NCBI GenBank assembly: GCA_036924285.1
Contig: JAYKYS010000016.1
Location: 186,001-250,000 of the forward strand
Reading direction: 5' to 3'
DNA from: Asterella californica
Lineage: Eukaryota; Streptophyta; Marchantiopsida; Marchantiales; Aytoniaceae
Length of the DNA stretch: 64,000 bases
Positions 8,214 through 57,530 of the stretch are shown in pieces. The position numbers and the translations under genes were made by a program. Each line of letters opens with the position of its first letter. The stretch's first letter is position 1. Under the pieces are notes generated by a model, which was not told the DNA's origin, made no database searches, and worked only from the letters and a program-made list of their open reading frames with translations.

Positions 8214-8905
8214 AGTTTCACAAATCAGCGAGCTAAGAGCACATCTCAACACCTCAATTCTCCTCAGACGCGATCTCCTCAGATCGCGTCTCGCTGAGAT
8301 CTTTCCAATGGTACCAAGCTTGCTAAAAACCAACAACCACAACTCCTTCGACGATCGATTTTGTCCACGGGTGTCAACTTCTCTCTCTAACAGATCCGCG
8401 AAATAGAAACACACCTCAACACCTCAATTCTCCTCAGATCGCAACAAGATTTGTCTCAATGGAAGCGTCTCGCCGAGATCTTTCCAATGGTACCAAGCTT
8501 GCTAAAAACCAACAACCACAACTCCTTCGACGATCGATTTTGTTCACGGGTGTCAACTTCTCTCTCTGACAGATCCGCGAAATAGAAACACACCTCAACA
8601 CCTCAATTCTCTTCAGATCGCAACAAGATTTGTCTCAATGGAAGCGTCTCGCCGAGATCTTTATAATGGTACCAAGCTTGCTAAAAACCAATAACCACAG
8701 CTCCTTCGATGATCGATTTTGTCCACGGGTGTCAACTTCTCTCTCTAACAGATCCACGGAATAGAAACACACCTCAACACCTCAATTCTCAACAACCACA
8801 ACTCCTTCGACGATCGATTTTGTCCACGGGTGTCAACTTCTATCTCTAACAGATCCGCGAAATAGAAACACACCTCAACACCTTAATTCTCCTCAGACTG
8901 CGAGG
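8214..8905 (-). repeat. LINE 5' monomer array (copy D)
   Basis: Tandem units of ~179 bp directly upstream of ORF1. The landmark CAGATCCGCG recurs at 8,391 and 8,570 and, mutated, at 8,749, which gives a period of 179. Each unit contains GATCGATTTTGTCCACGGG and GGTACCAAGCTTGCT. A fourth, shortened unit runs to about 8,905. The position, immediately 5' of ORF1 in every copy, suggests a repeated promoter or 5' UTR. Confidence 0.88.
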
Positions 8906-9074: not shown

Positions 9075-9593
9075 GGCCGGTCGCAACAAGATTTGTCTCA
9101 ATGGAAGCATCTCGTCGAGACCTTTCCAATGGTTCCAAGCTTGCTCAAAACAACCATAGCTCCTTCGATGATCGATTTTGTCCACGGGTGTCAACTTCTC
9201 TCTCCAACAGGTCCTTGAAATAGAAACACACGTCAACACCTCAATTCTCCTCAGATCGCAACAAGATATGTTTAAATGGAAGCGTCTCGCTGAGACCTTT
9301 CCAATGGTACCAAGCTTGCTGAAAATCAACAACCATAGTTCCTTCGACGATCGATTTTGTCCATGGGTGTCAACTCCTCTCTCCAACAAGTCCGCGAAAT
9401 AGAAACACATCTCAACACCTCAATTCTCCTCAGATCGCAACAAGATTTGTCTCAATGGAAGCGTCTCGCGGAGACTTTTCCAATGGTACCAAGCTTGCTA
9501 AAAACCAACAACCATAGCTCCTTCGACGATCGATTTTTGTCCACGGGTGTCAACTCCTCTCTCCAACAGGTCTGCGAAATAGAAACACACCTC
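9075..9593 (-). repeat. LINE monomer array (about 3 units)
   Basis: Three ~178-bp monomers of the same type and orientation as 8,214-8,905, cut off on the right by a sense-strand LINE 3' end at about 9,594. No ORF1 is attached. It is either the outer part of copy D's array, separated by the 8,906-9,074 insert, or a remnant of another copy. Confidence 0.85.
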
Positions 9594-10120
9594 AGTTGAT
9601 TCAGAAAAAGCTTTTACATGCTATATGGTCTCAACCCAAGACCAAGATGGCTTACTTTCAGCAGCATGTCAATCCCATGTTGGTGTATTGTGAACAAGAG
9701 TACCTCCGAGCACCTATTTCAATCTCTCTTCGACATATCATCGCTCAGCACCGCACTAGCTCTCATAGACTTGGCATTGAGGAAAGACGTTGGTTAAACC
9801 TTGTTAAGAGTGAACGGCTTTGTAGACTTTGTGATTTAGATCAGATAGAGGATGAGGATCATGTATGCATTGTATGTCCCTTGTATGATGAGATTAGATG
9901 TAGACATGTGAGCCTAGGAAACCTTAGGAGATCGTATCAATGCAAAAGAGCATTGGTACGACAAGAAACTATATCTCTAATATAAAGCCCTAGTGGGAGA
10001 GCTGACATCTGTAAAAGTGTATAGAATCACTAGCAACTATTGATTGACTTTGTATTGTATTTTTTTCTACCTTTTGACTCTTTGGGTATCCGGGCTTGAT
10101 ATTCAATCATTCATTCATAT
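9594..10120 (+). mobile_element. LINE 3' end with internal micro-inversion
   Basis: Sense-strand LINE 3' fragment. An open stretch encodes the C-terminus of ORF2: LIQKKLLHAIWSQPKTKMAY, then NPMLVYCEQEYLRAPIS, then the Cys/His knuckle RLCDLDQIEDEDHVCIVCPL. After GATGTAGACA the next ~135 bp (9,906-10,040) are reverse-complemented relative to all other copies. Normal order resumes at TTGACTTTGTATTG and the copy ends with the CATTCATTCAT tail at ~10,110-10,120. Confidence 0.87.
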
Positions 10121-12974: not shown

Positions 12975-13822
12975 GAGCACACCTTTGCACCTTAATTCTC
13001 CTCAGATCACAGCAAGATTTGTCTCAATAGAAACGTCTCGATGAGACCTTTCCAATGGTACCAAGCTTGCTCAAAAACAACCACAGCTCTTTCGATGATC
13101 AATTTTGTCCACGGGTGTCAACTCCTCTTTCCAACAAGTCCGCGAAGTAGAAACACCTCAACACCTCAATTCTCCTCAGATCACAGCAAGATTTGTCTCA
13201 ACGGAAGTCTCTCGTCGAGACCTTTCCAATGGTACCAAGCTTGCTCAAAACTAACAACCATAGCTCCTTCGACGATCGATTTTGTCCATGGATGTCAACT
13301 CCTTTCTCCAACAGGTCCGTGAAATAGAAACACACCTCAACACCTCAATTCTCTAGATCACAGCAAGATTTGTCTCAATCGGGAGTCTCGGCGAGTCCTT
13401 TCCAATGGTACCAAGCTTACTCAAAACCAACAACCACAGCTCCTTCGACGATCGATTTTGTGCACGGGTGTCAACTCCTCTCCAACAGATCCGCGAAATA
13501 GAAATACACCTCAACACCTCAATTCTCCTCAGATCACAGCAAGATTTGTCTCAATTGAAGCGTCTCGGCGAGACATTTTCAAATGTATCAAGCTTACTCA
13601 AAATCAACAACCACAGCTCCTTCGACAATCAATTTTGTCTCCGGGTGTCAACTCCTCTCTCCAACAAGTCCGCGAAATAGAAACACACCTCAATTCTCCT
13701 CAGATCACAGCAGGATTTGTCTCAATGGAAGCACCTCGGTGAGACTTTTCCAATGGTACCAAGCTTGCTCAAAGCCAACAACCACAGCTCCTTCGACGAT
13801 CGATTTTGTCCACGGGTGCAAG
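12975..13822 (-). repeat. LINE 5' monomer array (copy G)
   Basis: About five tandem ~175-180-bp monomers next to ORF1. They carry the usual landmarks (CCTCAGATC, GGTACCAAGCTTG, TTCGACGATCGATTTTGT, GGGTGTCAACTCCTC). Several units differ by short gaps. The array breaks off at about 13,820, where gypsy sequence begins. Confidence 0.88.
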
Positions 13823-14965
13823 TTTGCACCCGCATCTAAGTTTGCAACTCCAGGTCTATGTATTACCTGGAAGTCATACTCTTGTAAGATAAGAGCTCAT
13901 CGTGCAAGCTTCTCTGTAAGCTTGTCGGACTCCATCAACCACTTGAGTGGCTGGTAATCAATGATGAGAGTAAAGGGGTTCTCAAACAGATAACATCGGA
14001 AGTGTGCAACAGCCCACACTGCAACTAAACACTCCCCTTTGTACGAATTGTTGGAGCGACTGACATACGCCACCACAAACTTCTTTTTCTCATCATCATG
14101 TTGAGTCAGTACTGCTCCAAGTCCCAACATATTCCAATCAGTGTGCAGTTGGAAAGGACGCCCCCTAATGGATCTCCTCAAGATGAGAGTAGATGTCAAC
14201 CTATCCTTGAGCTCTACAAAAGCTCGCTCTTGCTCATCTTCCCGCTGCCACTCTTGATCTACCTTCATCAGCTTGGTCAATGGCTTCGCAATTGCACTAA
14301 ATCCTTTCACGTACCGACGATAGAAATTTACCAAACCAACAAATGCTCGAACTCGACTCACATCTGTGAGACGTGAGATACGTGCAATAGTCTAAACCTT
14401 CGTCTGTTGAACACCGAACCCAATTGGGTAGATGATGTGGCCCAGATACTCTACCAACTCTTGGAGAACTTACACTTTTTAGGGTGTAACTTCAACCCAT
14501 GAGCTCTCAACCGCTCGAACACATCTCGTAAGTGTCTCTCGTGCTCCTCCACAGTAGCACTATAGACTAAGATGTCGTCGATATAACATCTGACAAAATC
14601 CAATCCTGCTAGGATCCTGTCCATCACCCTCTAGAACTCAGCAGTGGCGTTCTTCAACCCAAATGGTAAGAACCGCCACTGATACAAATAATCTTTGTCG
14701 TGAGAGTCAATTCCTTAGAATGCTATCTTGGACTTATCTTCTTCTCTCACTGGCAACTGATGATACCCTGCTCGAAGACCCAAAGTACTGAAGATCTTCA
14801 CATGCCCCACTACATCAAAGACCTCCTCAGATGTCAACATGACATACTTATCGGACTTCGTCTGCCAATTGATGAGACGATAGTCTCCACACATCCATCT
14901 ATCCATGTAGTTGTCATAAATATCCTTCTTTGCTGGCATAACTGTGGCAAATGCATACTCTCCAC
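13823..14965 (-). pseudogene. Ty3/gypsy reverse transcriptase-RNase H remnant
   Basis: Antisense pol fragment. The RT part (14,430-14,965) reads GEYAFATVMPAKKDIY, MCGDYRLIN, KIFSTLGLRAGYHQLP, QWRFLPFGLKNATAEF and VRCYIDDILVYS (YIDD catalytic pair). It is broken by several stops. The RNase H part (13,897-14,361) reads RAFVGLVNFYRRYVKGFS, RPFQLHTDWNMLGLGAVLTQ, FVVAYVSRSNNSY and LKWLMESDKLT. It lies between two LINE segments and both its edges are abrupt. By sequence style it belongs with the methyltransferase-bearing fragment at 24.3-25.8 kb: that fragment ends just after MPAKKDMYGN, where this one begins. Confidence 0.9.
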
Positions 14966-16680: not shown

Positions 16681-19494
16681 GAATGAATGATGAATATCAA
16701 GCCCGGAAGACCCAAAGAGTCAAAAGGTAGAAAAAAATGCAATACAAAGTCAACATGTGAGCCTAGGAAACCCTAGGAGATCGTATCAATGCAAAAGAGC
16801 ATTGGTACGACAAGGAACTATATCTCTAATATAAAGTCCTAGTGGGAGAGCTGACATCTGTAAAAGTGTATAGAAATCACTAGCAACTATCTTATGTCTA
16901 TATCTTATCTCATCATACAAGGGACATACAATGAATACATGATCCTCATCCTCTATCTGATCTAAATCACAAAGTCTACAAAGCCGTTCACTCCTAACAA
17001 TGTTTAACCAACGTCCTTCTTCAATGCCAAGTCTATGAGAGCTAGTGTGGTGTTGAGTGATGAGATGTCAAAAATAGATTGAAATAGGTGCTCCGAGGTA
17101 CTCTTGTTCACAATACACCAACATGGGATTGACATGCTGTTGATAGTAAGCCATCTTGGTCTTGGGTTGAGACCATATAGCATGTAAAAACTTTTTCTGA
17201 ATCAACTCCAGAAGAGCAATAGGTGGAAGGTCAAAATCACACTCGAAAATGTTTCATTTTCCACACCAAGCCACCACATCACCATACCAACCAAATGCGA
17301 GCTCTTAGAGCTTGACAAGGTAATCTCGTCTCTCCAAGGGATCTCACTCTTGAGACATAAATGATAGTAAAATAAAGAGCTTCTGCTTCCACGGATAAGC
17401 AACCAGATTCAGCAAGGAGCATATCATATGATGTTTGGCATCTTACACCAAACATCACTTGTAAGAACACATTTTGAACCTTCTCAATACGTTCCCAAGC
17501 TCCTTTCCTTGCACCAAGCCCCCACACTTGAACACCATAAAGTATCACATGCAAAACCAAACTCCTGAAGAGAAACTTTCTCAAATCCCATGCTAAGAGA
17601 TGAGCACGTCGACAATGATTCAAAAGAGAGTACAAAGCTTTGTACTCAGCTTCAACTCTCTTATGAATGCACAAAGCCCAACTGTAGTTATGAGAGAAAT
17701 CAATGCCCAAGTACTTGTAACTCTCCACTTGTTGTAAAACTTGGCCCTTGTAGAGAAAAGAATGACGGACTTTTGAACCCACCACCATCACCTTGGACTT
17801 CGAAAGGTTCACTTCCATCTGCATGTTGTTGCAAAAGACCTCAAGAGCATCCAAATGTCGTTGTAAACTCAAAGGATCATGTGATAGAAGAATGACATCA
17901 TCGGCATAAATCAATGCCTGAATGATATAGATTCCTAACTTCACACCTTCTCCTCCAAATTCAGCAAGACATCTCTCCATGTCATCAATGAAGATACCAA
18001 ATAAAACAAGGGAGAGAAGACAACCTTGAATGATTCCAATAGTGCTAAAGATCTACTTTGATTGTGTCGAGGTAAGCTTCACATAAACTCGTTCATAGAG
18101 TTTAGAAACCGCTGCCATCATGTCTTTAAGAATACCAATGGCAACAAGTCTGTCCCATAAGAGCTTCATAGGCACCCTATCAAAAGCTTTTGTGTAGTCG
18201 ATAAAAGCAGCATAGAGAGATTTACCATTTCCTTTTGACTTCTCCCAAGCAACACGAAGACAAAAGATATGATCAATGGTGCTAAAGGTAGGACGAAAAC
18301 TTGCTTGTGAACGAGCTCTCACAATGGATCCTTCTGCCCAAGCACTGAGTTTTCTCTCTAGCAAGCTCCCATACAACTTGGCAAAGATGTTGCCCACCAT
18401 GATAGTTCTATAGTTGGTAACATCATCCTTCTTGTCCGACTTGTGGATGAGAATCACTTTGCGCATGAACCAACTCTTAGGGAAACCATGTACAGCAGCA
18501 TCATCAGAAGCTTGGTAAGTATAGGAATGAGAGAATCACCTCCCCATTGTAGTAGCTCCGCAGAAAATCCTTCTAGATCCTCAGATTTTCCACTTGCAAG
18601 CCTATTGAGCTGATGTCGTACTTCGTCCATTGAAAAGATCTGCGGTAGTCCTTCACTTTGTGGCATACATGGTGCATGTGGAGAGAAGTAAAGTTGCTCA
18701 ACGTAGGACATCAAAGCTGAAGGATCAAGACTTGATGAACCCAAGACGAGATGCTAAACGTCTCCAAAAAGCTTTGGAATTCTTCTGAAAATCAAAAGCA
18801 AGTTCCAAGCCTTTCTTTCTCAAGAAAGCTTTCTTCTTACGTTTGATCAACTGCTTGTACAAGGTTGTTGCTTCCAAGTCACAAGCCTTGTCTAGAGCCT
18901 TTAACTGAGCAAGTTTGCACTCTTCATCAAACCGCCATTGCAAGGGTTACCTTTGAGCTTTTTGCTTGAGTGTTAAGAGAAAGACTGAGTTGCAATTTTC
19001 TTCAAGACATCAGTCAATTGTGTATCTGGTTGATCAAGATTGTACTTCCATTGTGTAATAGATATCAAATTCTCTAGAGCAGTTTTGATAAAGATGTCTT
19101 TTTCGGTGATCAAGACGAAGTCTAGAGGTAGTGTTGCTCCCATCAAAACCTTTCAACTTGTAAGATGTAAATGAGCTAGACAAGGATAGTGAGAACAGTA
19201 GAGGAGTGTGATCAGATTCAAGTTGTAGATCCAAAACTTCAAATGCTGAAATGAGTGAACTATCAAGAGATGAAGAGAGGAGGTAGTCTACTATGCTTGA
19301 TCCAGAGGTAGAGACGTATGTTTTCATGTTAGAGCTAGGAAAACGGGATGTACCGTTCAAAATTTTCAAACTACAGATTGCTCCAAAAGTCAAGAATTGT
19401 TCTTTCATGTCATTGGTGGATGTATCTAAGGAGGCACGAGACCATGTAAGATCATCATCTTCTTCAAGAATAGGGGAGTGGTCAAGAGCATATT
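16681..19494 (-). mobile_element. LINE 3' half (copy J)
   Basis: Antisense copy from tail (GAATGAATGATGAAT at 16,681) to the middle of the endonuclease. The RT C-terminus and palm lie at 17,279-17,980: FGGEGVKLGIYIIQALIYAD, LDALEVFCNNMQMEVNLSKS, LGIDFSHNY, VILYGVQVWGLGARKG, IEKVQNVFLQVMFGVRC. Further RT pieces lie at 18,053-18,943. The endonuclease C-terminal part lies at 19,034-19,490 (SSIVDYLLSSSLD, LESDHTPLLFSLSL). It joins at 19,494 to a 5' LINE segment in the opposite orientation. Confidence 0.88.
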
Positions 19495-20940
19495 GAGGTG
19501 TGTTTCTATTTCTCGGACTTGTTCAAGAGAGGAGTTGACACCCGTGGACAAAATCAATCATCGAAGGAGTTGTGGTTGTTGGTTTTGAGCAAGCTTGGTA
19601 CCATTGGAAAGATCTCGGCGAGATGCTTCCATTGAGACAAATCTTGTTGCGATCTGAAGAGAATTGAAGTGTTGAGGTGTGTTTCTATTTCGAGGATCTG
19701 TTAGAGAGAGGAGTTGACACCCGTGGACAAAATCGATCATCGAATGAGCGGTGGTTGTTGGTTTTGAGCAAGCTTGGTACCATTGAAAAGGTCTCGACGA
19801 GACGCTTCTATTGAGACAAATCTTGTTGCGATCTGAGGAGAATTGAGGTGTAGAGGTGTGTTTCTATTTCGCGGACTTGTTGGAGAGAGGAGTTGACACA
19901 TATGGACAAAATAGATCGTCGAAGGAGCTGTGGTTGTTGGTTTTGAGCAAACTTGGTACCATTGGAAAGGTCTCGGCGAGACGCTTCCATTGAGACAAAT
20001 CTTGTTGCGATCTGAGGAGAATTGAAGTGTTGAGGTGTGTTTCTATTTCGAGGATCTGTTGGAGAGAGGAGTTGACACATATGGACAAAATCGATCGTCG
20101 AAGAAGCTGTGGTTGTTGGTTTTGAGCAAGCTTGGTACCATTGAAAAGGTCTCGACGAGACGCTTCTATTGAGACAAATCTTGTTGCGATCTGAGGAGAA
20201 TTGAGGTGTAGAGGTGTGTTTCTATTTCGCGGATTTGTTGAAGAGAGGAGCTGACACATATGGACAAAATAGATCGTCGAAGGAGCTGTGGTTGTTGATT
20301 TTGAGCAAACTTGGTACCATTGGAAAGGTCTCGGCGAAACGTTTCCATTGAGATAAATCTTGTTGCGATCTGAGGAGAATTGAAGTGTTGAGGTGTGTTT
20401 CTATTTCGCGGACCTTGTTGGAGAGAGGAGTTGACACCAGTGGACAAAATCGATCGTTGAAGGAGCTGTGGTTGTTGGTTTTGAGCAAGCTTGGTACCAT
20501 TGGAAAGGTCTCGACGAGGCGCTTCCATTGAGACAAATCTTGTTGAGATCTGAGGAGAATTGAGGTGTAGAGGTGTGTTTCTATTTCGCGTACCTGTTGG
20601 AGAGAGGAGTTGACACATATGGACAAAATAGATCGTCGAAGGAGCTGTGGTTGTTGGTTTTGAGCAAGCTTGATACCATTGGAAAGGTTTCGGCGAGACG
20701 CTTCCATTGACACAAATCTTGTTGTGATCTGAGGAGAATTGAGATGTTGAGGTGTGTTTCTATTTCGTGGACTTGTTGAAAAGAGGAGTTGACACCCGTG
20801 GATAAAAATCGATCGTCGAAAGAGCTGTGGTTGTTGGTTTTGAGCAAGCTTGGTACCATTGGATAGGTCTCGGCGAGACGTTTCCATTGAGACAAATCTT
20901 GTTGCGATCTGAGTAGAATTGAGGTGTTGAGGTGTGCTCT
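19495..20940 (+). repeat. LINE 5' monomer array, 8 units (copy K)
   Basis: Longest monomer array in the window. The landmark TGTGTTTCTATTTC recurs about every 179-180 bp from 19,499 to 20,755, which gives eight units running straight into ORF1. Units differ mainly by substitutions (for example GACACATATGGAC versus GACACCCGTGGAC), and alternate units look more alike, which hints at a two-unit amplification step. The array reads through in long frames on the other strand only because the repeat happens to lack stops there. Confidence 0.9.
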
Positions 20941-24290: not shown

Positions 24291-24908
24291 GTGGATAATC
24301 CCCACACATCCGTCTATCCGTGCATTGCCATACATATCCTTCTTGGCTGGCATAACTGTGGCAGATGCATACTCTCCATGCGACATCTCCACCAACCCAG
24401 CCTCCAACAAGTCTTGAGTCCGACTCTGGATCAAGGCTCTCTCCATGTCACTGTACCTGTAAGGACGTCGAAAGATTGACGTGTTGTTAGCCAAGTCGAT
24501 CCATATACCAGGTCCCTTCAAAGTACCCAAATCCTTCATACTGAAGGCAATACAATTCTTGTAGCTCTTCAAGAATCTTTGGACTCTTCGTCTCTCCTCT
24601 CCTATAAGCTTGGGTCCAATCTCCGGCTCTCAAGTATCCTCTGTCATCATGCTAGAGATAGAAGACGAAGTCGTTGACTGCTATCTTGTAGCCTCTGGAG
24701 CAGTTTCTTTCTGCTCACCACCAACAACCTCCACCGCTACTGCGCGTAAAACTTTTGCAGTTCTAGCCACAAGCTCCACAATCTCTCTTACGATATCCCA
24801 TGATGTCCAAGGATGACGAACTTCATACGCCTCGCCCCCAGCCTTTACCTCCACCGACTCGATAGACAAAGAGCTTAGAAGTGTCCGAGCAGTAACACCC
24901 GTCGATCG
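24290..24908 (-). pseudogene. Ty3/gypsy reverse transcriptase N-terminus and linker
   Basis: Antisense, in the same frame as the methyltransferase C-terminus upstream. After the methyltransferase comes a linker of about 75 codons that I do not recognise (includes VRHPWTSWDIVREIVEL), ending at a stop at 24,681. The pol region follows: PKLIGEERRRVQRFLKSYK, CIAFSMKDLGTLKGPGIWID, TSIFRRPYRYSDMERALIQ, LLEAGLVEMSHGEYASATVM and PAKKDMYGN. These are standard Ty3/gypsy blocks before the first RT catalytic Asp. The copy breaks at about 24,290, just before the GDYR block. Confidence 0.88.
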
Positions 24909-25805
24909 CATCCGACGCTGCTCAACCAATCCAAGGCTAACAATCCATGTCAAGCAATTCAAGTCCATTGCTTGACCCAATACTTGACGACGTGAAGCCT
25001 CCGACACCGAAGCTACTGCCGTCGTACTCGTAGCGAAACCCATCGTTCGCTCTCTCTCATCGGCATTGGGCTCCACCAACTGCCGTAATTGAGCATCCCA
25101 CACAAGCCCAAGTCATCCATCTCTGTAAGCATGTGACGCTGAAAAGCTTACCAAAGTGAGAAACGCTATCATGAGTCATCCCACTAGGTTCACCACTGCC
25201 ATGGGTGACCTATCGACGACTCTCACTACTTGAGATCGTCGTCTTGCATCCAAGATGCTATCAACCGTGAGATATGTTGATCGTCTTACTCCATCGTGTG
25301 CGCGCTTAAGCACCTCTCTCGGTAACAAGTTCGTCCACCACAACTGTGGACGATGTGCACGAGATCTTATTCTCGCTGCATCCAACAACACTGCTGGTCC
25401 AACCCAAGATCGCACTTGGTGCACACTCGTCATCATTTGTGTACGAGCATCATCCAACAAAGGAACGTTCTCCAAGATGTACGTTGGAGAATCCACTTGA
25501 TGCATCTGGAGATGTCGTAAGATCCGTAACATCTCCCAAAACATCCTAGATCGCGGGTCATGTAAACCCTAACCTCTCCCAGCACGCGTGTGACCTTGAC
25601 ATGATCATCCGGCTATCACCAAGTGAATGGTGCCAACAACCGTAAGATCCTACGCCCTCAGCAACAAAATATCTGACGGTAATACTTGCTGGTATCCTCT
25701 AACAGCTGATATGGACAACAACTCAAGATATCTCTGCATCAAACATGTCATATGTCGCAATGAGACGCGTCTCGCAATCTCATCTCTCTTCACATACAAA
25801 TATCT
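24909..25805 (-). pseudogene. retrotransposon-borne DNA cytosine-5 methyltransferase remnant
   Basis: Antisense remnant of a C5-DNA methyltransferase encoded upstream of, and in frame with, a gypsy reverse transcriptase. Seen in order: RYLYVKRDEIARRV (motif II region, usual acidic residue replaced by Lys), RGYQQVLPSDILLL, HLVIAG, then SCQGHTRAGRG with the catalytic Cys codon at 25,599-25,601 (motif IV), GLHDPRSRMFWEMLRIL, YILENVPLL (motif VI ENV, 25,464-25,472), LLDAARIRSRAHRPQLWWTN (motif VIII-like, close to the AHR...W.NL of DNMT3), a short target-recognition stretch, VEPNADERERTMGF (motif IX) and RRQVLGQAMDLN (motif X). Motif I is missing because the copy breaks at ~25,805. Four or more stops and at least one frameshift (near 25,110) make it inactive. 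It would methylate cytosine using S-adenosylmethionine. Retrotransposon methyltransferases are known from charophyte algae and dinoflagellates. Confidence 0.87.
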
Positions 25806-26514
25806 TAAACAGATAGGACACAAGTTTACTCAAGAGACACCCGAGCAGCTCCAGATGAGAGGAAGGGTGGTGATCCCCATCCACTCTCGTAAAGTCTATG
25901 AGGAGGTTGTCTCGTGCTTACAATCTCGTCCTCATCTGAGACTGGATAGTGGATGGAAGGATGCAATCTGTTGGTGTGGCTTTCGTCAAGAAGCAGAGGT
26001 GCACACCAAATACAAAACTATAACGAAGAAGATGAAACCAGTGACGACCCAGTTACCTGTTGACTCACAACAGCAGATGAAGTTAGCTGCTGTTGAGCTT
26101 GTACTGAGAGATCCTAAACAGATAGAACACAAGTTTACTCAAGAGACACTCGAGCAGCTCCAGATAAGAGGGGTTGTTTTCTTGACTGAAGTAGAGAAAC
26201 GAGCTTTCGAGCAGATGATAGTTAATCATGGTAAGGCATTTTCTTTCTCAGCTGAGGAGATTGGTTGTGTGGATCCTAGTGTGATAGCTCCGATGGTTAT
26301 CTTTATTGTTCCTCATGTACCTTAGGACTTTAAGCCCATTCCTCGTGCCTTGCTACCGAAGGTCATTGAGTTACTGAAGCAGAGGATGACAAGAGACAAG
26401 GATGCTCCGGCTACTGAAGAGGTTAGGCGGAGGAGAGTGATGATGATGAAGAACAGATAGAAGAATGAAGACGTTGGCACATGTCGGAGGATGTGCAGGT
26501 TTAGAGGGGCTGGA
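25806..26514 (+). pseudogene. second Ty3/gypsy family: protease-RT linker remnant
   Basis: Sense-strand pol fragment of a different gypsy family. It reads HTKYKTITKKMKPVTTQLP, KQIEHKFTQETLEQLQIRG, FLTEVEKRAFEQMIVNHGKA, FSFSAEEIGCVDPSVIAPM and VIFIVPHVP, then a stop where Trp is expected, then DFKPIPRALLPKVIELLK. This is the segment just before RT in elements of this type. The RT, RNase H and integrase are deleted: after ~26,400 it goes straight to the polypurine tract (26,502-26,514). The block KQIGHKFTQETPEQLQ at 25,806-25,866 is a partial duplicate of 26,113-26,170. Amino acids read upstream of 25,800 on this strand are only the shadow of the methyltransferase. Confidence 0.8.
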
Positions 26515-32686: not shown

Positions 32687-34790
32687 ATGGCCCGGAAGGG
32701 AAAACTTCTGCAAACAAGTGACCATGTTGTTCGAGAGAGTTTTTGGCTCGAAAAAGATTTTATGAGACAAAAAGGAGAGACTGATGTAGCAGGTGTTAGT
32801 TCTTCCGAACTTGTTCAAGAAGGATGTATTCAGAAAGGTAAGACAGATTCAGTTGGAGTGAAGAGAAGGAAGTGGAAAGATTCTTGGACTATAGATTATC
32901 CATGGGCAGAATTTGATCCTGTGCATGCGCTGGTCTTTTGCAAGATCTGCAGAGAAATGAAAGGAGAAAGTAAGTTTGCTGCAGATGGGTCAGTTAATGT
33001 CAAGACCAGTGCCTTGTATGATCATGCTGGTACTAAAGAACACATTAAACTAGTATATGTTCGGATGCAAGGTATAGAAGCTATGCAGAAGTATATAGCT
33101 TCCGCTAATAAGAGTTGTGATGCTGCTGTTTTTACTTTATTCAGAGCTGCATACTTCATCGGAAAAGAATCTCTAGCATTTTCAAAATTCCTCAAGTTGA
33201 GTCAGCTGTTGAAAAGACGACTGAGAACATACCTATCCCTTTATACCAAGATGATAAAGCATGTAGCGAAATGATTTTACATACTTCGCATGTTATAGAA
33301 CGTAGAGTCTTGGAGAAGGTTAGAGCCTCTAGTTTTTATGATATTATGATAGATGAGAGTACTGATACTTCAGTCTCATCTCATCTGGTTATTTTTTGTA
33401 TATTTCTTGAGGATGGTAGGGTTTGTACTGCCTTCCTGGGTCTGATCCATATTACAAGTAAGGATGCTGAGGCTATTTCTAGTTGTTTGCTCTTGTCTTT
33501 GAAGGAGTGGGGATTAGAATATGAGCGCATGGCTGCTTCTGATGATGCAGCCATCATGATGAGGATTCGAAATGGAGTAACTGCTCGTCTGAAAAATATA
33601 GTAAATCCGTATCTAGTATCTTGTCATTGTGTGGCTCACAGGACTAGCTTAGCAGCTTTAGGTGCAGCAAAACTACCCCAGTGCAAAAAGGTAAGCGAGG
33701 AGGTAGATGTCTTACTGAACAGTGTGTCTTCTTATTTTCATTATTCCAGTAAGAGAAAAACAGCTTTAGCTTCTATGCAGGAAAAATTCTCAAATGCTAG
33801 AAGGTGTATGAAACGTTATCATAAGATTAGATGGCTGAGTAGGTGGCAAGCTGTCTCGTAATTGTGTGATAGTTACGAAAGTTTGTTGGTTTTTCTTGAA
33901 GGAGCTCAGAGGACAGATGACGTTGTAGCGAGCAAGTTGTATGAGAAGTTGTGCAGTTTTCGGATATTATACATCTTATATTTTCTAGCTGATATATTGG
34001 GTTGTTTAGCAAAGTTGAGCAAGACCTTCCAAGGTGACTTGGTAGATGTGTCCAGTGTGCGATCAGAGATCTCCACTACAATTTTAGAGATACAAATAAA
34101 TTTCTTGATGGAAAGTACTGACCTTAATGCAGTTGTGCTTGATTAGAGAACATGTTATCACTTTTTGCCTGATTTTGGTAGTCATGGAGGGTTTTGAAAC
34201 GCTTACCTTCTGAATTAAGAGGTAAACAGTTTCACAGTATTGATCTTCAAAGAGATAGAGCTCGAAAGGATCTTGATGATGCTTTAAATTTCCAGACAAG
34301 CTTTGCTGAGGCTGTGTGTACATGTTTGACTGAGAGGTTTGAGGATAATAGTGTTGTCAGCGCTTTTAAATTTTTTAACCCTCAACATGTATCACAATGT
34401 CTCTCTGGAATGCGAAACTGAGGATTCAGAGAGATGGATCAGTTGTGTGCATTTTATGGTAAGTCAATAGGTGAGTATGGTCTTTTAGTTGATGCTTTGA
34501 CAGTGTCTGTCGAATTTCGTGCATTTAAGATACAATGCATGGCGGAATGACAGAATAGAGGGTTTCACGAGGTTTGGCAATTATTGAGTATAAATCCGAT
34601 TTACTGTGAGAAGTTTGCTAACTTATTAGTCTAGTAGACACCGTCAGAGTACAATGCATCTCTACTGCCGTTGCGAGAGAGCTTTTTCTATTCAGAATAT
34701 TATAAAGACTAAGCACCGAAATGCTCTACAGACTAGAAATCTAGAAGCGCAGATGAGAGTGGCACTTGAGGGAGGGACCTGAAGAGGACT
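32687..34790 (+). pseudogene. hAT transposase, ZNF862-like, broken
   Basis: Reads from MARKGKLLQTSDH. An N-terminal TTF/BED-like finger (~residues 68-125) includes WAEFDPVHALVFCKICREMK and SALYDHAGTKEH. A frameshift follows at about 33,190, then the catalytic region EKVRASSFYDIMIDESTDTS (first Asp), FCIFLEDGRVCTAFLGLIHI, SDDAAIMMRIRNGVTARL, SCHCVAHRTSLAAL, and KIRWLSRWQAVS before a stop at 33,859. Further pieces lie at 33,862-34,421. The C-terminal dimerisation block ERAFSIQNIIKTKHRNALQ and TRNLEAQMRVALEGG lies at about 34,675-34,780. The order is that of hAT transposases of the ZNF862 type, which cut and paste the element. At least three breaks make it inactive. Confidence 0.87.
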
Positions 34791-45285: not shown

Positions 45286-46232
45286 CGAGCTCACTCTTAT
45301 GTGCTATGAGCTCTCGATGCAGATCTGCTACTTCAACCGATACTTCTTCCACCGCTGCCAACACCTTATGAAGGAGTTGTTTAATCTCCTCCATCATCAC
45401 CGAAGAACTAGTTTCACAAATCAGCGAGCTAAGGGCACACCTCAACACTTCAATTTTCCTCAGATCGCAACAAGATTTATCTCAATGAAAGCGTCTCACC
45501 GAGACCTTTCCAATGGTACCAAGCTTGCTCAAAACCAATAACCACAGCTCCTTCGACGATCGATTTTGTCCACGGGTGTCAACTCCTCTCTCCAACAGGT
45601 CCGCGAAATAAAAACACACCTCAACACCTCAATTCTCCTCAGATCGCAACAAGATTTGTCTCAATGGAAGCGTCTCGTCGAGACCTTTCCAATGGTACCA
45701 AGCTTGCTCAAAACCAACAACCACAGCTCATTCGACGATCTATTTTGTCCACGGGTGTCAACTCCTCTCTCCAACAGGTCCGTGAAATAAAAACACACCT
45801 CAACACCTCAATTCTCCTCAGATCGCAACAAGATTTGTCTCAATGGAAGCGTCTCGCCGAGACCTTTCCAAGTGTACCAAGCTTGCTCAAAACCAATAAC
45901 CATAGCTCCTTCGACAATCGATTTTGTCGACGGGTGTCAACTCCTCTCTCCAACAGGTCCGCGAAATAGAAACACACCTCAACACCTCAATTCTCCTCAG
46001 ATCGCAACAAGATTTGTCTCAATGGAAGCGTCTCGCAGAGACCTTTCCAATGGTACCAAGCTTGCTCAAAACCAATAACCACAGCTCCTTCGACGATCGA
46101 TTTTGTCGACGGGTGTCAACTCCTCTCTCCAACAGGTCCGCGAAATAGAAACACACCTCAACACCTCAATTCTCCTCAGATCGCAACAAGATTTGTCTCA
46201 ATGGAAGCGTCTCGCCGAGATCTCCCTAAACC
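45277..46232 (-). mobile_element. LINE copy M, 5' end with monomers
   Basis: Antisense start of ORF1 (MMEEIKQLLHKVL, up to HKSELVSV) and then four to five monomers of ~179 bp from about 45,430 to 46,220. Together with 39,332-40,439 it forms one LINE insertion whose middle (most of the RT, endonuclease and the ORF1 C-terminus) was replaced by the LTR element. The long frames on the plus strand here are stop-free repeat readings, not genes. Confidence 0.88.
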
Positions 46233-46481
46233 CTTTCTCTTCTCAGAGAATGGGCTTGAAGAGCGTGTCGACTACTTGGTGAACTTTGCATCATCAGCCA
46301 CGAAGGAAGAAAAGGCACAGATCCCCGCGACGCAGTTACTGTCACCTTCTTTGGCAGTAGCTTCCGAATCTGACCTGTTGGAATTTCTCATCTGACGGTC
46401 ATGAGGCATAGTTACCCTTGCCCTTCTCGATGACTGCCTACAGCCCGCTCTCCAGACACGAGACCAGCTCTCAAGGCAAGA
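46233..46481. repeat. inverted duplication, left arm (249 bp)
   Basis: Reverse complement of 46,841-47,089 with only two or so mismatches (for example GAGCGTGTCGAC versus GAGCGCGTCGAC). It lies between the last LINE monomer and the right target-site duplication, so it is part of the inserted DNA. The spacer to the other arm is 359 bp. Confidence 0.9.
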
Positions 46482-46840: not shown

Positions 46841-47089
46841 TCTTGCCTTGAGAGCTGGTCTCGTGTCTGGAGAGCGGGCTGTAGGCAGTCATCGAGAAGG
46901 GCAAGGGTAACTATGCCTCATGACCGTCAGATGAGAAATTCCAACAGGTCAGATTCGGAAGCTACTGCCAAAGAAGGTGACAGTAACTGCGTCGCGGGGA
47001 TCTGTGCCTTTTCTTCCTTCGTGGCTGATGATGCAAAGTTCACCAAGTAGTCGACGCGCTCTTCAAGCCCATTCTCTGAGAAGGGAAAG
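46841..47089. repeat. inverted duplication, right (donor) arm
   Basis: Partner of 46,233-46,481. It lies outside the target-site duplications and is therefore the original host sequence from which the left arm was copied. Confidence 0.88.
46927..47076 (-). CDS. possible 3' exon of an unrecognised gene
   Basis: Minus-strand stretch reading ENGLEERVDYLVNFASSATK, EEKAQIPATQLLSPSLAVAS, ESDLLEFLI and stop. It is preceded on the same strand by a good acceptor (TTTCCCTTCTCAG). The composition is protein-like, but only 49 codons are seen and no upstream exon can be assigned with confidence. The second arm at 46,233-46,481 carries the same stretch. If real, the LINE landed in its 3' flank. Confidence 0.3.
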   Translation of the reverse strand, partial: ENGLEERVDYLVNFASSATKEEKAQIPATQLLSPSLAVASESDLLEFLI

Positions 47090-48363
47090 CGCTGCTTGGG
47101 TAGTAATGATCCTTTCTCCTGGAGGAGCAGTTCTTGAGAAAAGTTTATCCGGGCCGTTCAGCAGGTCTGGCTTGCCTGGCTGATAGTTGAGTTCGACGAC
47201 GCCTCGACCGGTGATCGTTCTGATGCTTATTGGAGGTGATTTGAGCTGTTGGCTTTCTTTCGCTGCCTCTGGCTTGCGGCCTCGTTGCAGTGTCGATGGA
47301 AAGTGCACATTCGGTTTCGTGGTGTAACAATACGTCTACTGTTTCAGCTCTATTTTACATTCCGAGTAAGAATTTGGCCATGCTGTTATTCTATGTACGC
47401 CGCTGGTTTTGGTCTCTTTGTCTCTGGTTGTGGGTGCGAGTGTACAATTCGCTAACAACTCCAAGTGGGCTTCGCATGGCTTTCCGCTATGATATCGGAA
47501 AACTTCGCTGTTCGCTTAGATTCTTGCACTCTTTAAGCTCAATCGAAATGCGTTGACTGTAAAGGTGAAGAATTCTGTACCGTCTTTGAAGACATTAAAC
47601 TTGGTAACAGCTGCGAAACTGGTGATTAAGTCTATTCAGTTGTTAAGCTCGTGTGAAAAACAATCTTTTCGGCGCTGGCACTCGAATAAGGTGGGGCTGT
47701 CTCTCAAGTGTGTGTAAGGCCCAGTGGCTCTGATTCTCTGGGCCTTAGATGGTATTGTTCAGTTTGAGAAGTTGAAAAAACTTTCACTTTGTTTGCAGAC
47801 CATGCACTGAATTCCGTTGGTGTATAATTTGAATCCCAGTTCGTGTGACACATGGACTAATAGGCGAGCTAAAATGATATCATCACGGATGTGAATCGAA
47901 AGTAAGAGTTCGTGTGACCACGGATAATAACTAGAAGAATAAAAGCACGCTCTAGCAAGTAAAGAATACCAAATGGTTGATCTAGTTTAGATGCCTGAGT
48001 GACGGGACTTAGTGAGACGGGGCTGCTTTTAACTGGGGAAGCAGCATACCTGCTTCTTCTACTTCCACCTTGCACTGTTTCTGCTCAAGTCGTGGTTGCG
48101 ATCAACGTGTTGTGGCCTGTGAAATCCGAATCGGCAGCTGTGCGGACTTCATATCAAGAACGTTGTTTCAAAACCTGCTTGTTTTCGCCGAGACCAAGTT
48201 TCTCCTTTGTGCATTCACAAATTTTGCCCTTCCATATTTTACACTGTCCCAAAGGAAGCTTTATCAGTGTTTCTGATTGCAAGTGCAAAGCTCTTATGAA
48301 TTTGATTGGAGTCTTGTTTTCTTTATGTGAATAGCAGGTGCGCGCTGAAGGCAGTCATTGACC
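47090..48363 (+). promoter_or_regulatory. upstream region of the rhomboid gene
   Basis: Probable promoter and 5' UTR. No exact TATA or start site can be fixed. Pyrimidine-rich stretches near 48,190-48,330 fit a 5' UTR, and a 5' UTR intron is possible. Short frames on both strands show no domain. Confidence 0.35.
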
Positions 48364-51039
48364 ATGAGAGGAGTCCAAGCCTTGCAATCGCCTTACAGCC
48401 TTCCTGCTCAATCTTGTAATGTGAAGGTTTTGGCACCTACAAAGAAGAATCTCCACTACGGACGTGCTGATAGTAATACTCAATGCGGAGATCTTAACTT
48501 TGACCCCAGGTTAAGTGCTATTCAGTTAGGTGCTCGTATAAAATGTTATGGACATGAACTTAGGTGGTCTGGTTTTCAACCCAACTTTCTGAGACGAAGA
48601 GATGCAACTAGAAATCTTCTTTTAGACGGCTCTAGAAAATTTAACCTAATTAGGGAGAAAAAGTTTTCTGTACTGGTTACTCGATGCGACTCGTCTGAGC
48701 GCAAATCGGTCTCCACGACTACTTCAAGTCCTGAAGAGCAACAGAAAACTGCTAGCGCAGAAAACAATAAATCGGATGGCGTGGAGCAAGGGCTGGCCAT
48801 GAAAAGTGGCCTAAGCGCACTGGATGCTTATTTCAGTAAGTTAAACGGAAGTTCTACGGGTGGCCCCGAAGTATCGATAGCGACGGTGACTGTACCCAGT
48901 TCCCCTTCTGCATCAGCTGTATCAGTCTTGGCTCCTCCTGAAGTAGAAAAATCAGCTTCTGGCAGTGGATTGACCTCTACCGCAGTTACCAACAAAACGG
49001 ATGACGGAAAGGACGTGCAAGGATTGAAATCGTTGGATGCATACTTCAGTAAACTTCAACCAAAACAGCGAGGTACGTGTCCTGCCCTGCACCTAGTTGC
49101 AAATCCCTCCTAGTCAGTAGGTTTTGATATCTAAGATACGTGCTTCAGAAACCAGCGCTTTTATTCAGAGACCCCCCGATATTTTCACTGGGTTTGAGCA
49201 CTATCCCTTATCCTACATTCTTCACTGATCAAACCCTAGACTTGATTGCTTGCCGTGTCTGACTTTGCTCTTGTTTGCAACATAGACCCTGTGAAGGATG
49301 AAGCGGAAAAACGACCGGATAGTACTGTTGAGATCAATGAAGAAGAGTTGTTTTTCAAGGCATTATTAGAAGCCAAAGAGGAATACGAGGAGTACAAGAC
49401 CTCACAGGGAAGCTCCGAAGGAGGGCTCGAGGTGGCACCCCGTACTGACGATGACGGAAACGAGTTGGACCTTTCAGAGTGGGAACAGGAAGGGGAGCCC
49501 AGCTCTAGCTCCGATCTTATGTAAGTGCCAATCTTTATTGTTAGTTTCAACTGGTGAATGAGGTGACGCTGAGAATATTGAGGACCATCCAGAGTAGAAA
49601 TTGCAACTAAAGGAATTGCAGCCAGAATTTCTCGACGCATCTGATCACAGTGGTTGTCTGTGATAACGACAGCAACTTCTTGGTGGCTGTCAACATCGCT
49701 GTCTATTTGTTCAGCTTGGCAAGCCCGCATGAAGCCTTCGGAATCAGGGATTCTTCCTTACCATTTGTGTATGGAGCAAAAGTTAATGAGTTGATTGTTG
49801 CTGGACAATGGTGGAGATTAATCACTCCAATGTTCCTGGTGAGAATTTTACCTGACCATGCCTGCCCGGTACAAATGCTTCGTATGTAGCTGACGATTTA
49901 TTTTAGTAATTGGCGCATGGGATATTCGTCTTTGGCCTAGTACCAAATGTGGAATATACTAAGGTTGTTCTCTGTGGTGCTGTTTATAACCTTAAATGTT
50001 TTGTTTCTTTTGCAGCACGCGAGCCTGTTACATGTTGGTCTTGGTTCATGGGCTCTACTATCGTTTGGACCAGCAGTTGAGAGTGCTTATGGCACTTTCG
50101 GATTCGCTATGATATACTTCTTAGGCGGAATTTTTGGGAATTTGATGAGTTATTTTCACACGAATGAGTGGACAGTCGGCGGAACTGTAAGTCAATGCGC
50201 TGTCTTGTTCTACGCTCTATACGCTTGAAATATCTGGTGCCATGTTTAGCAAGGAAATGAATTTATAGTGGTTTGTGATTAAATGGTTACAAAGCATCCG
50301 CTCTGCACGTTAGATAGGCGTGTGTAGTCCATGATTCCGCAGAAGGCAATGTGATAAAGTTGACAGTTTTGTTTGCAGGGCCCAATTTATGCTCTCGTGG
50401 GTACATGGTTGGTTTACCTTCTGAAAAACCGGGAAACAATTGGAAAAGAAATTGCTGATGACATGATTCGGAAGGTCATCATATTGAGTGCACTGAATGT
50501 TGCACTCTGGAACTCTCTTCCTGTAGATGACTGGTAAGGCCTCGACTTCAGAAATCACGTCTTCATAACAGTGCATTGTAATTATGGTTAAATCTGAGAT
50601 TCTCATAATGTCCATCACAATTCGAAGTGTTCAAAGTTGTTCGAATTTCGAGTCCAGCAGAAGCACGGCTTGCAAGTAAAGTTGTTTCCGGGTCCCCTAT
50701 TTGGGGACCAAATCATTCGTAGGTAATGCGCGTCAGGTTTTCTTATTCAAGATTCCTCGGTGCTTATGCAGGACACATCTTGGTGCAATACTTGTCGGCC
50801 TACTCTTCGGAGTTCTGGCGAGTCCCACAATGCAGTTGAACGTTTCGTTGAAAGAGTTGGATCCGGATTCCAAGGAAGAGATGGGTGAAGCATTTTTGTG
50901 GTTCAACGAAGGGCTTAGTCCAGCCAGATTGACCCTCGTATTTATCATGTGCCTCGGTATTTTCTACGTTCTTTACCAGTTGGCTGTCGCTGGTTCCAGC
51001 GATCTCTATCTCCTTCAAGACACTGATTTGTTTTCATGA
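48364..51039 (+). CDS. RBL9: plastid rhomboid-like protein, RBL9 type
   Basis: Six exons, 584 codons: 48,364-49,072; 49,286-49,520; 49,622-49,838; 50,016-50,186; 50,379-50,533; 50,772-51,039. All introns are GT-AG and the phases join without a stop. Start is ATG at 48,364 (MRGVQALQSPYSLPAQS), a transit-peptide-like N-terminus with few acidic residues. Residues ~140-236 carry LSALDAYFSKL and LKSLDAYFSKL, a repeated motif. Exon 2 is acidic. The membrane core has WWRLITPMFL, then HASLLHVGLGSWALLSFGP, YFLGGIFGNLMSYF, TVGGT|GPIYALVGTWL (residues 441-455), DDW|THLGAILVGLLFG (His ~498) and a last helix LTLVFIMCLGIFYVLYQ. In active rhomboids the GGT position is GxS. Here Thr 444 replaces Ser, while the later His is kept, so it is likely a pseudoprotease or altered enzyme. 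Plant RBL9 acts at the plastid envelope; that location is inferred here. Confidence 0.92.
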
Positions 51040-55546: not shown

Positions 55547-57530
55547 ATGGATAATCAGACTTGTTATCGATGTTCTCGAGAGCTCGCTCTATCCGCGTTT
55601 ACTCGTGCTCGCAAAGGGCACAACCTTCTAGACTTGAATATTTTCAAAACGTGTAACGACTGTTATAGAAGAGCCGAGGGTACGTCTGGTAGTGTAGAAC
55701 CGGATGATGAAGAAGATGCAAGTTTCTTGGTGTCTGTCGAGTGTCAGTACACAGAACTTGTCGATGTACTGAGAGAGCTTTTCACGGATGAGGACATCGA
55801 GGACTCAGTTATCTTCTTCCGCTTGACCGTTTCTCTAACGGACGATAGTATGATTGGAGAATTCATGAGTTGGAACCCACATAATGCTGCTTCTGCGTTA
55901 TCGTGCTGGTTGAAGCAGTATATGATTCCGGAGTTGGAGATGACCAGTAGGTATTACTGGGATATACGGAACCCACGAGTTTCAATGAAGTAGACCTCAT
56001 TGTTCAGAACTACGTGTTGGTGTGCATCACAGAGCGATAGAATTACTTACTCACAGCGTGAAGTACCAGTAGAAAATCAGCGAGTGCAGGAAAAGAAACG
56101 TAAGATAAATCGATTTGAATGTGGGAGAAATGTCCGCATCACAGTAGACACGGTTGCGAAAGTTGTTACACTAACTTGTCAACATCTGCTGGTGCACGAG
56201 AAACCTACGTATAAATTGAACATTTTCCCAGATGAGGCTATTACGTTCTTAGAAGGGATTGCTAACATGAACGTTCAGAAGCCTGAGGTATATCAAATGC
56301 TTTGCGATAGAGGTATGATTAGTCCTTTGAACATCACCAGGGCCCAAGTAAACTTTTGTCTTTGTTGATAAGGAGCTCAACCTTTGCTGACAAAAAGTTC
56401 TCTCAAGTTCTATATGAACACACAAACAACTTCATGGCATTAGGTTTTTGCACCTCTTTTTTTGAGCGTGTTAGCTCAGTCGTAGAGATAGTAGTAGATT
56501 TCACGTTTAAGACCAATTCTATGCGGTTCGAGTTGTTTGTCGTGGCTGCCAACTTCGGAGGTTTTGGTATATCACTCTTGTATCTTTTTTATCTGAGGGT
56601 AGGCGAAGGTAAGAAGGACAGTGGGTTAGAGATTGAACAACATCGAAAAGGTGTGTTGACTGCTTGGTCTGTGTCGCTCCGAAACCGAGGTCTAAAGCCT
56701 GTCTTCGCGCTCACTGATAAGAACAGCAGACAAATAAGTGCTTTGCAAGCTGCATTTGTTCCTATGTATGTTCAACTATGCATGAAGCATGCACAGGCTG
56801 CTGTTGAGGTTAAGTGTATGAGCTTAGGGAAGGCCACTAGTTCTTATACGAATATCGAGACAAATAACCATTTTCCTTTCATCGATCCAGAGTGGGGTTC
56901 AAGTCGTACGTAGGGTTCTACGCAAGGTTCTCGTTCTACGCAGGGTATAAATATCTCACCTTTGATCACTATTAGAAAAGAGATTCTGACCTTGCTGACT
57001 CGGCATTATAACTTGCATACTCTCTCCGAATTCTGCAGGTGAGTTTGACTCCTCTAAAGCTCTTCATTCCAAGGCCATGCTTGAGATGTATCAGCTTTGT
57101 AGAACTCACAACTTGTCATTCTTGTGGAGGTACCTGTGGAGAGAATGGTATAGTCCGTCTAAGTTTCAGCTGTTTAGTAGATCATCTAAACCGATTCTTA
57201 GCTTATCGAGAACTATTAACATAGTTGAGAGTCACTGGAGAAAGCTTAAACATGATTAAATACGCATTAAATAGGCCTCGTCTAGACCGTTTGACATTGG
57301 TAATTGCAGAGAGTATAGTCGACGACATGTTAAAAGTGTTGCAACAGGTACTTAACAGGCGTTCTCATCCATCATGGTGAGAGACGTTTCGAGTGACTTG
57401 GCGTAAGTTGGGGAGCTTGTCACCTTCAAGCAGCATCATACATCACAATGATGTTCACTGATGGACTTGCTCATGTCCGCAATATTTGAATTCTCCTTAT
57501 CTTTTGTGCAAGCATCTAGTACAAGCGTAT
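55547..57530 (+). pseudogene. MULE transposase with zinc ribbon, DDE and SWIM finger
   Basis: Starts MDNQTCYRCSRELALSAFTR with a C-x2-C...C-x2-C ribbon (CYRC, CNDC). A stop at 55,991 is followed in the same frame by KKRKINRFECGRNVRITVD and LTCQHLLVHEKPTYKLNI. A frameshift near 56,355 leads to the catalytic part: EIVVDFTFKTNSMRFELFVV (first Asp), GVLTAWSVSLRNRGLKPVFA, LTDKNSRQISALQAAFVP (second Asp) and MYVQLCMKHAQAAVE. After another break come LWRYLWREWYSPSKFQL and TINIVESHWRKLKHD (the catalytic Glu), then LNRPRLDRLTLVIAES. The SWIM finger WTCSCPQYLNSPYLLCKHL lies at ~57,461-57,517. This order is that of MULE-like transposases known from basidiomycete fungi and some plants. It is inactive because of several stops and shifts. 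Confidence 0.87.

Follow-up and report, generated by a model that had tools for sequence, protein, structure and literature searches.

Our analysis indicates that the window, by which we mean the whole 64-kb stretch of DNA that was analysed, very probably contains a dead, truncated copy from a bryophyte lineage of Ty3/gypsy LTR retrotransposons that carries a DNMT3-class cytosine methyltransferase. This confidence applies to the identity of the remnant and not to the mechanism that we propose for its enzyme. The features that enter into the argument are as follows.

24,684 to 25,805, minus strand: decayed DNMT3-class cytosine methyltransferase domain (motifs II to X) together with the tail at its C-terminus (tblastn of relatives, motif survey, stop scan)
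25,599 to 25,601, minus strand: codon of the motif IV catalytic Cys (motif survey)
24,675 to 24,683, minus strand: TAG ending the enzyme's frame, followed by CAGTCA, a possible leaky stop (stop scan)
24,295 to 24,641, minus strand: start of a Ty3/gypsy reverse transcriptase (RT) in the enzyme's frame, with one TGA at 24,632 and a frameshift near 24,321 (tblastn with P0128 and P0147)
13,804 to 14,963, minus strand: remains of RT and RNase H from the same family of elements (P0135, 77% and 70%; RNase H, E 2e-19), a feature absent from an earlier note on this DNA
48,358 to 51,039, plus strand: host rhomboid-like gene with several exons, not part of the element (protein comparison, Pfam)

The earlier note had read motifs II, IV, VI, VIII, IX, and X of a C5 methyltransferase in that order in a single minus-strand frame, and our motif survey bears this out, including the position of the motif IV Cys codon at 25,601-25,599. 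When a 122-aa piece was used as the query in a first protein search, we obtained 120 relatives (best identity, 71%), and every tblastn match of these proteins in the window (E <= 1e-3) fell on a single locus. The long relatives align across 25,805 to 24,699 far above chance and in several cases without gaps, for example, P0121 (67%, E 1e-131) and P0123 (65%, E 2e-138, the best E value). For most relatives, similarity to the window begins only at 25,805, from which it follows that motif I, part of the SAM site, has been lost from this copy. The domain is interrupted by five in-frame stop codons, which start at 25,652, 25,607, 25,571, 25,178, and 25,115, and motif IV reads stop-Ser-Cys, where Trp-Pro-Cys is common among relatives and Pro-Cys is kept in 34 of 41. 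With these stops, the loss of motif I, and the replacement of the catalytic Pro by Ser, the window copy is dead and truncated. Searches with the decayed pieces themselves returned little: the enzyme piece reached at best an E value of 0.1 in Pfam and had no match among PDB sequences, and the RT piece gave no Pfam family and chance-level matches in a further domain search. The identification of both pieces thus rests on their relatives. A 61-bp direct repeat (93% identical; 25,802-25,862 and 26,111-26,171, 309 bp apart) has its first copy starting at the breakpoint of methyltransferase homology.

The relatives place the enzyme in retrotransposons. A second protein search with a longer, joined query yielded 54 proteins of 612 to 1,885 aa from 7,213 candidates. 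Named sources among them are Marchantia polymorpha (18 proteins, with P0121 as Mp_4g09160 and P0122 as Mp_8g17980), Calypogeia fissa (1), Sphagnum fallax (1), and a Spirochaetia metagenome-assembled genome (1), the last probably misbinned. We worked from protein records, some being gene models that may contain false introns, and assigned the domain orders by aligning pieces of P0121, P0135, P0147, and P0162 locally to each protein. In 53 of the 54, the enzyme is accompanied by one or more of the element domains gag, protease, RT, RNase H, integrase, and PHD. Specifically, 22 have the order gag-protease-enzyme, 6 have protease-enzyme, 8 have the enzyme directly before RT, 8 have it directly after RNase H or RT-RNase H, 7 have enzyme-integrase-PHD, 2 have other mixed orders, and 1 (P0164) has the enzyme alone. 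The claim that a gypsy retrotransposon carries its own methyltransferase is thereby upheld, since the relatives have the enzyme within gypsy polyproteins.

Pfam was run on 21 of the 54 relatives, a set that leaves out P0126, P0136, and P0171. It found a methylase in 16, an RT in 10, both in 7 (two of these with the methylase below the cut-off), and a PHD finger in 8, one of which is from Marchantia (P0155). A weak protease match appeared in P0137, P0140, P0144, and P0153. Because Pfam recognized the methylase alone in P0121, P0122, P0123, and P0124, gag and protease were assigned in the Marchantia proteins from local comparison, along with CCHC knuckles and a DSGA motif that are visible by eye. 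The order RT-RNase H-integrase was found by Pfam in P0156, P0162, P0163, P0166, and P0170; the window has RT and RNase H. From the domain orders over the 54 proteins and Pfam on the 21, the enzyme occupies one of two positions, either between protease and RT, as in the window, or between RNase H and integrase. The latter arrangement, often accompanied by a PHD finger and in P0154 also by a Tudor domain, marks a second enzyme-bearing gypsy type (P0154, P0156-P0163, P0165, P0166, and P0168), whose enzymes group in a separate clade of 13 rows (support 100/99). No relatives were found among viral contigs or GTDB genomes, neither protein search returned a match named as the Klebsormidium element, and no match among the relatives found was named as a tracheophyte.

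As to the class of the enzyme, the likeness to DNMT3 rather than DNMT1 proposed in the earlier note is supported by comparisons run on the relatives, for which the nearest solved methyltransferases are DNMT3A/B by profile, by single sequence, and by fold. In the profile search, DNMT2 came far behind (E 0.003), and no chain named DNMT1 or CMT was among the 54 PDB sequences with E <= 0.01. A first structure model (714 aa, 7 sequences, pLDDT 46) was discarded as too poor; the second covers motifs I to VIII only. The motif order is canonical (I-IV-VI-VIII-IX-X), with motifs I to X in the relatives and II to X in the window, unlike the rearranged order of DRM. In an enzyme tree of 52 rows, the window falls inside a 23-row clade (support 100/100) with the tree's named liverwort rows. 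Both the tree and the motif counts draw on 41 of the 54 long relatives; the other 13, including P0147 from Sphagnum and P0135 from Marchantia, had fewer than 300 domain residues found. Our RT comparison, with nine relatives plus the window, is too small for the question of a common history of enzyme and RT.

The RT start next to the enzyme matches P0128 from 24,629 to 24,324 (tblastn, 67%, E 3e-39), and P0147 spans the enzyme and the RT start in a single alignment. The C-terminal part of the enzyme had been described as lying in one frame with this RT. The shared frame stands, but it is not an open one, since the TAG at 24,683-24,681 and the TGA at 24,632 intervene. At the position of the TGA, P0131 and P0147 carry Trp. 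The tails of P0121, P0122, P0124, and P0129, the four compared by eye, terminate near the TAG, which is therefore probably native rather than a product of decay. Furthermore, the CAGTCA that follows it fits the leaky-stop pattern of plant viruses, UAG-CAR-YYA. Counting both strands, the window has 1,733 TAGs, of which 6, the enzyme's own included, are in this type of context; the match was spotted post hoc on a dead copy. A plus-strand frame at 25,627-26,325 that looked by eye like a gypsy RT start was rejected, as Pfam gave it no support.

The second RT piece (14,963-13,804) picks up the element protein where the first one stops, with an overlap of 86 columns, and the two are separated by 9.3 kb made up of LINE-like copies and tandem repeats with a 179-bp unit. 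Whether both derive from a single insertion is finely balanced. There is close to an even chance that the RT-RNase H piece belongs to a copy other than the methyltransferase-bearing one, given that the overlap is just 88% identical and that the LINE copy abutting the piece is cut inside its own RT and not at a natural end. Against this, the two pieces are on the same strand and of the same family, and the element protein resumes at the break. A tblastn search of the 64-kb window with the relatives gave no match to the family's gag, protease, or integrase, and repeat searches recognized no LTRs around the truncated copy.

Several places in the window have arrays of a single 177-179-bp tandem repeat (19,493-20,936; 12,988-13,818; 8,286-8,790; 9,081-9,594; 45,436-46,220), which adjoin LINE-like copies. 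Remnants of DNA transposons lie at 32,687-33,861 and 56,356-56,913; their frames gave a zinc-finger match with a weak DUF4371 match, which we read as hAT-like, and a weak MULE transposase match. Two arms of a 249-bp inverted repeat (46,233-46,481 and 46,841-47,089), 99% identical, are perhaps a young inverted-repeat element. The rhomboid-like gene, for which 7,993 candidates sharing the most words were scored, is 66% identical to its counterpart in Marchantia polymorpha, 63% in Riccia sorocarpa, and 72% over 70% of the query in Riccia fluitans; at greater distance, identity is 50% for Calypogeia, 40% for Ceratodon, and 36% for Physcomitrium. On this comparison, a complex thalloid liverwort is the most likely host.

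How the element might use its enzyme is suggested by the position of the domain. The nearest relatives have the enzyme at the end of the gag-protease frame, after protease and ahead of RT, so that it would be expected at the level of Gag and in particles. We propose, as a tentative scheme with somewhat less than an even chance, that the enzyme is produced alongside Gag and protease, is taken into the particle, and methylates new element DNA before or at integration. Carried in the particle, it could act on the double-stranded DNA copy. If the UAG after the enzyme were leaky, some ribosomes would read on into RT-RNase H-integrase; we are doubtful that these domains are supplied in this way, but we give the idea some weight. 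It is unlikely, though worth weighing, that the enzyme has been kept for another use, such as methylation of a tRNA or of the element's own RNA, or restraint of the element that would spare the host. The CpG observed/expected ratio is 0.98 in the enzyme remnant, above both the value for the window (0.72) and those for the RT pieces (0.56 and 0.65), and thus the remnant does not display the CpG depletion that self-methylation might leave as a trace. Furthermore, we know of no activity for this enzyme lineage. Both observations are in keeping with such another use, but fold and profile favour DNMT3, which is a DNA enzyme, with DNMT2 well behind. A more elaborate version of the scheme, for which we hold out little hope, concerns complex thalloid liverworts as a group: gypsy-lineage enzymes would be their sole DNMT3 class, translated along with Gag and followed by a leaky UAG leading into RT-integrase, an integrase-side PHD finger would read chromatin, and de novo self-methylation would spill into the host methylome. 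The Marchantia methyltransferase list in the available part of one published account has MET, two CMTs, two DRMs, and no DNMT3 (PMC5784723).

Patterns of conservation bear on whether the domain does anything catalytic at all. Comparing P0121 with P0123, P0124, P0125, and P0147 gives identities of 71-76% for the domain, 56-72% for the protease, and 40-58% for two linkers. The gag core, comparable in this near set with P0147 alone, is 72% identical where the domain is 73%. Against the more distant P0136, P0140, and P0149, the corresponding values are 48-50% for the domain, 39-44% for the protease, 22-32% for the linkers, and 26-28% for the gag core. The comparison with RT is mixed, with domain and RT identities of 89 and 83% for P0128/P0135, 73 and 58% for P0147, and 46 and 46% for P0153. 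Judged by these identities, the enzyme appears to be no less conserved than the remainder of the element, which suggests constraint. It is improbable that the domain is simply carried along, with no catalytic role. Some relatives do lack key residues, with the motif IV Pro-Cys absent in 7 of 41 (two of them gene-model gaps) and one of two tested motif I residues absent in 9 of 41, but every one of the 41 keeps the Glu-Asn of motif VI, and within its frame the domain is conserved better than any other part. Finally, we reject as very improbable the objection that part of a host methyltransferase gene (DNMT3, DRM, or CMT) came to lie beside a gypsy fragment by chance: the copy is indeed a fragment among other broken repeats, but its nearest relatives are element proteins (61-76% identity) and not a host methyltransferase gene, its motif order is not that of DRM, and the C-terminal DUF3444 that plant host DNMT3 genes have in the available part of their published description (PMC6453930) is present in 0 of 21 long relatives (Pfam, E <= 0.01).

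A transposon lineage with a DNMT3-class enzyme has precedents. Retrotransposon-borne DNMT3 enzymes have been described from Klebsormidium and dinoflagellates, according to the available portions of two papers (de Mendoza et al. 2018, PMC5890265; again PMC12344493), and comparison with the systems in the former is correspondingly partial. KnitGypsy-Dnmt3 of Klebsormidium nitens, likened here by description, resembles the window family in having a DNMT3-type, non-rearranged methyltransferase in a Ty3/gypsy coding region, but it differs in its charophyte host, its DIRS-like repeats, and the placement of the enzyme in the Pol frame (PMC5890265). In SymbioDIRS-Dnmt3 of Symbiodinium, too, a retrotransposon polyprotein includes a DNMT3 domain, and the domains occur in more than one order; unlike the window family, this is a DIRS element with a tyrosine recombinase, in a dinoflagellate (PMC5890265). 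In the portion of that paper available, de novo CG methylation by SymbioDIRS enzymes was shown in yeast, and activity of the Klebsormidium enzyme was absent in an inconclusive test (PMC5890265). Plant host DNMT3 proteins, for example, PpDNMT3a/b of Physcomitrium, have the DNMT3-type domain in common with the family (PMC6453930, in the part available). Among these systems, the window family is similar in kind to KnitGypsy-Dnmt3.

What is added here is host range. One published statement, in the part of its source available, holds that land plants are without such elements. The liverwort and Sphagnum records contradict that absence for land plants as a whole, though not for tracheophytes. No report of such elements in bryophytes was recognized in our literature search, with most subscription journals and bioRxiv outside its scope, and the words Marchantia, liverwort, moss, and Sphagnum were not found in the available text of PMC5890265. 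With a land plant as the host of the window and relatives in liverworts and Sphagnum, the extension of range anticipated in the earlier note is borne out: this is a known kind of element, here extended to bryophytes.

Cytosine methylation is one of the main means by which plants silence their transposons, which makes a transposon equipped with its own methylating enzyme a paradox. Marchantia polymorpha is a model plant for which genetics and methylome maps are available, and since relatives with long frames are present in this species, what such an element gains from methylating is directly testable.
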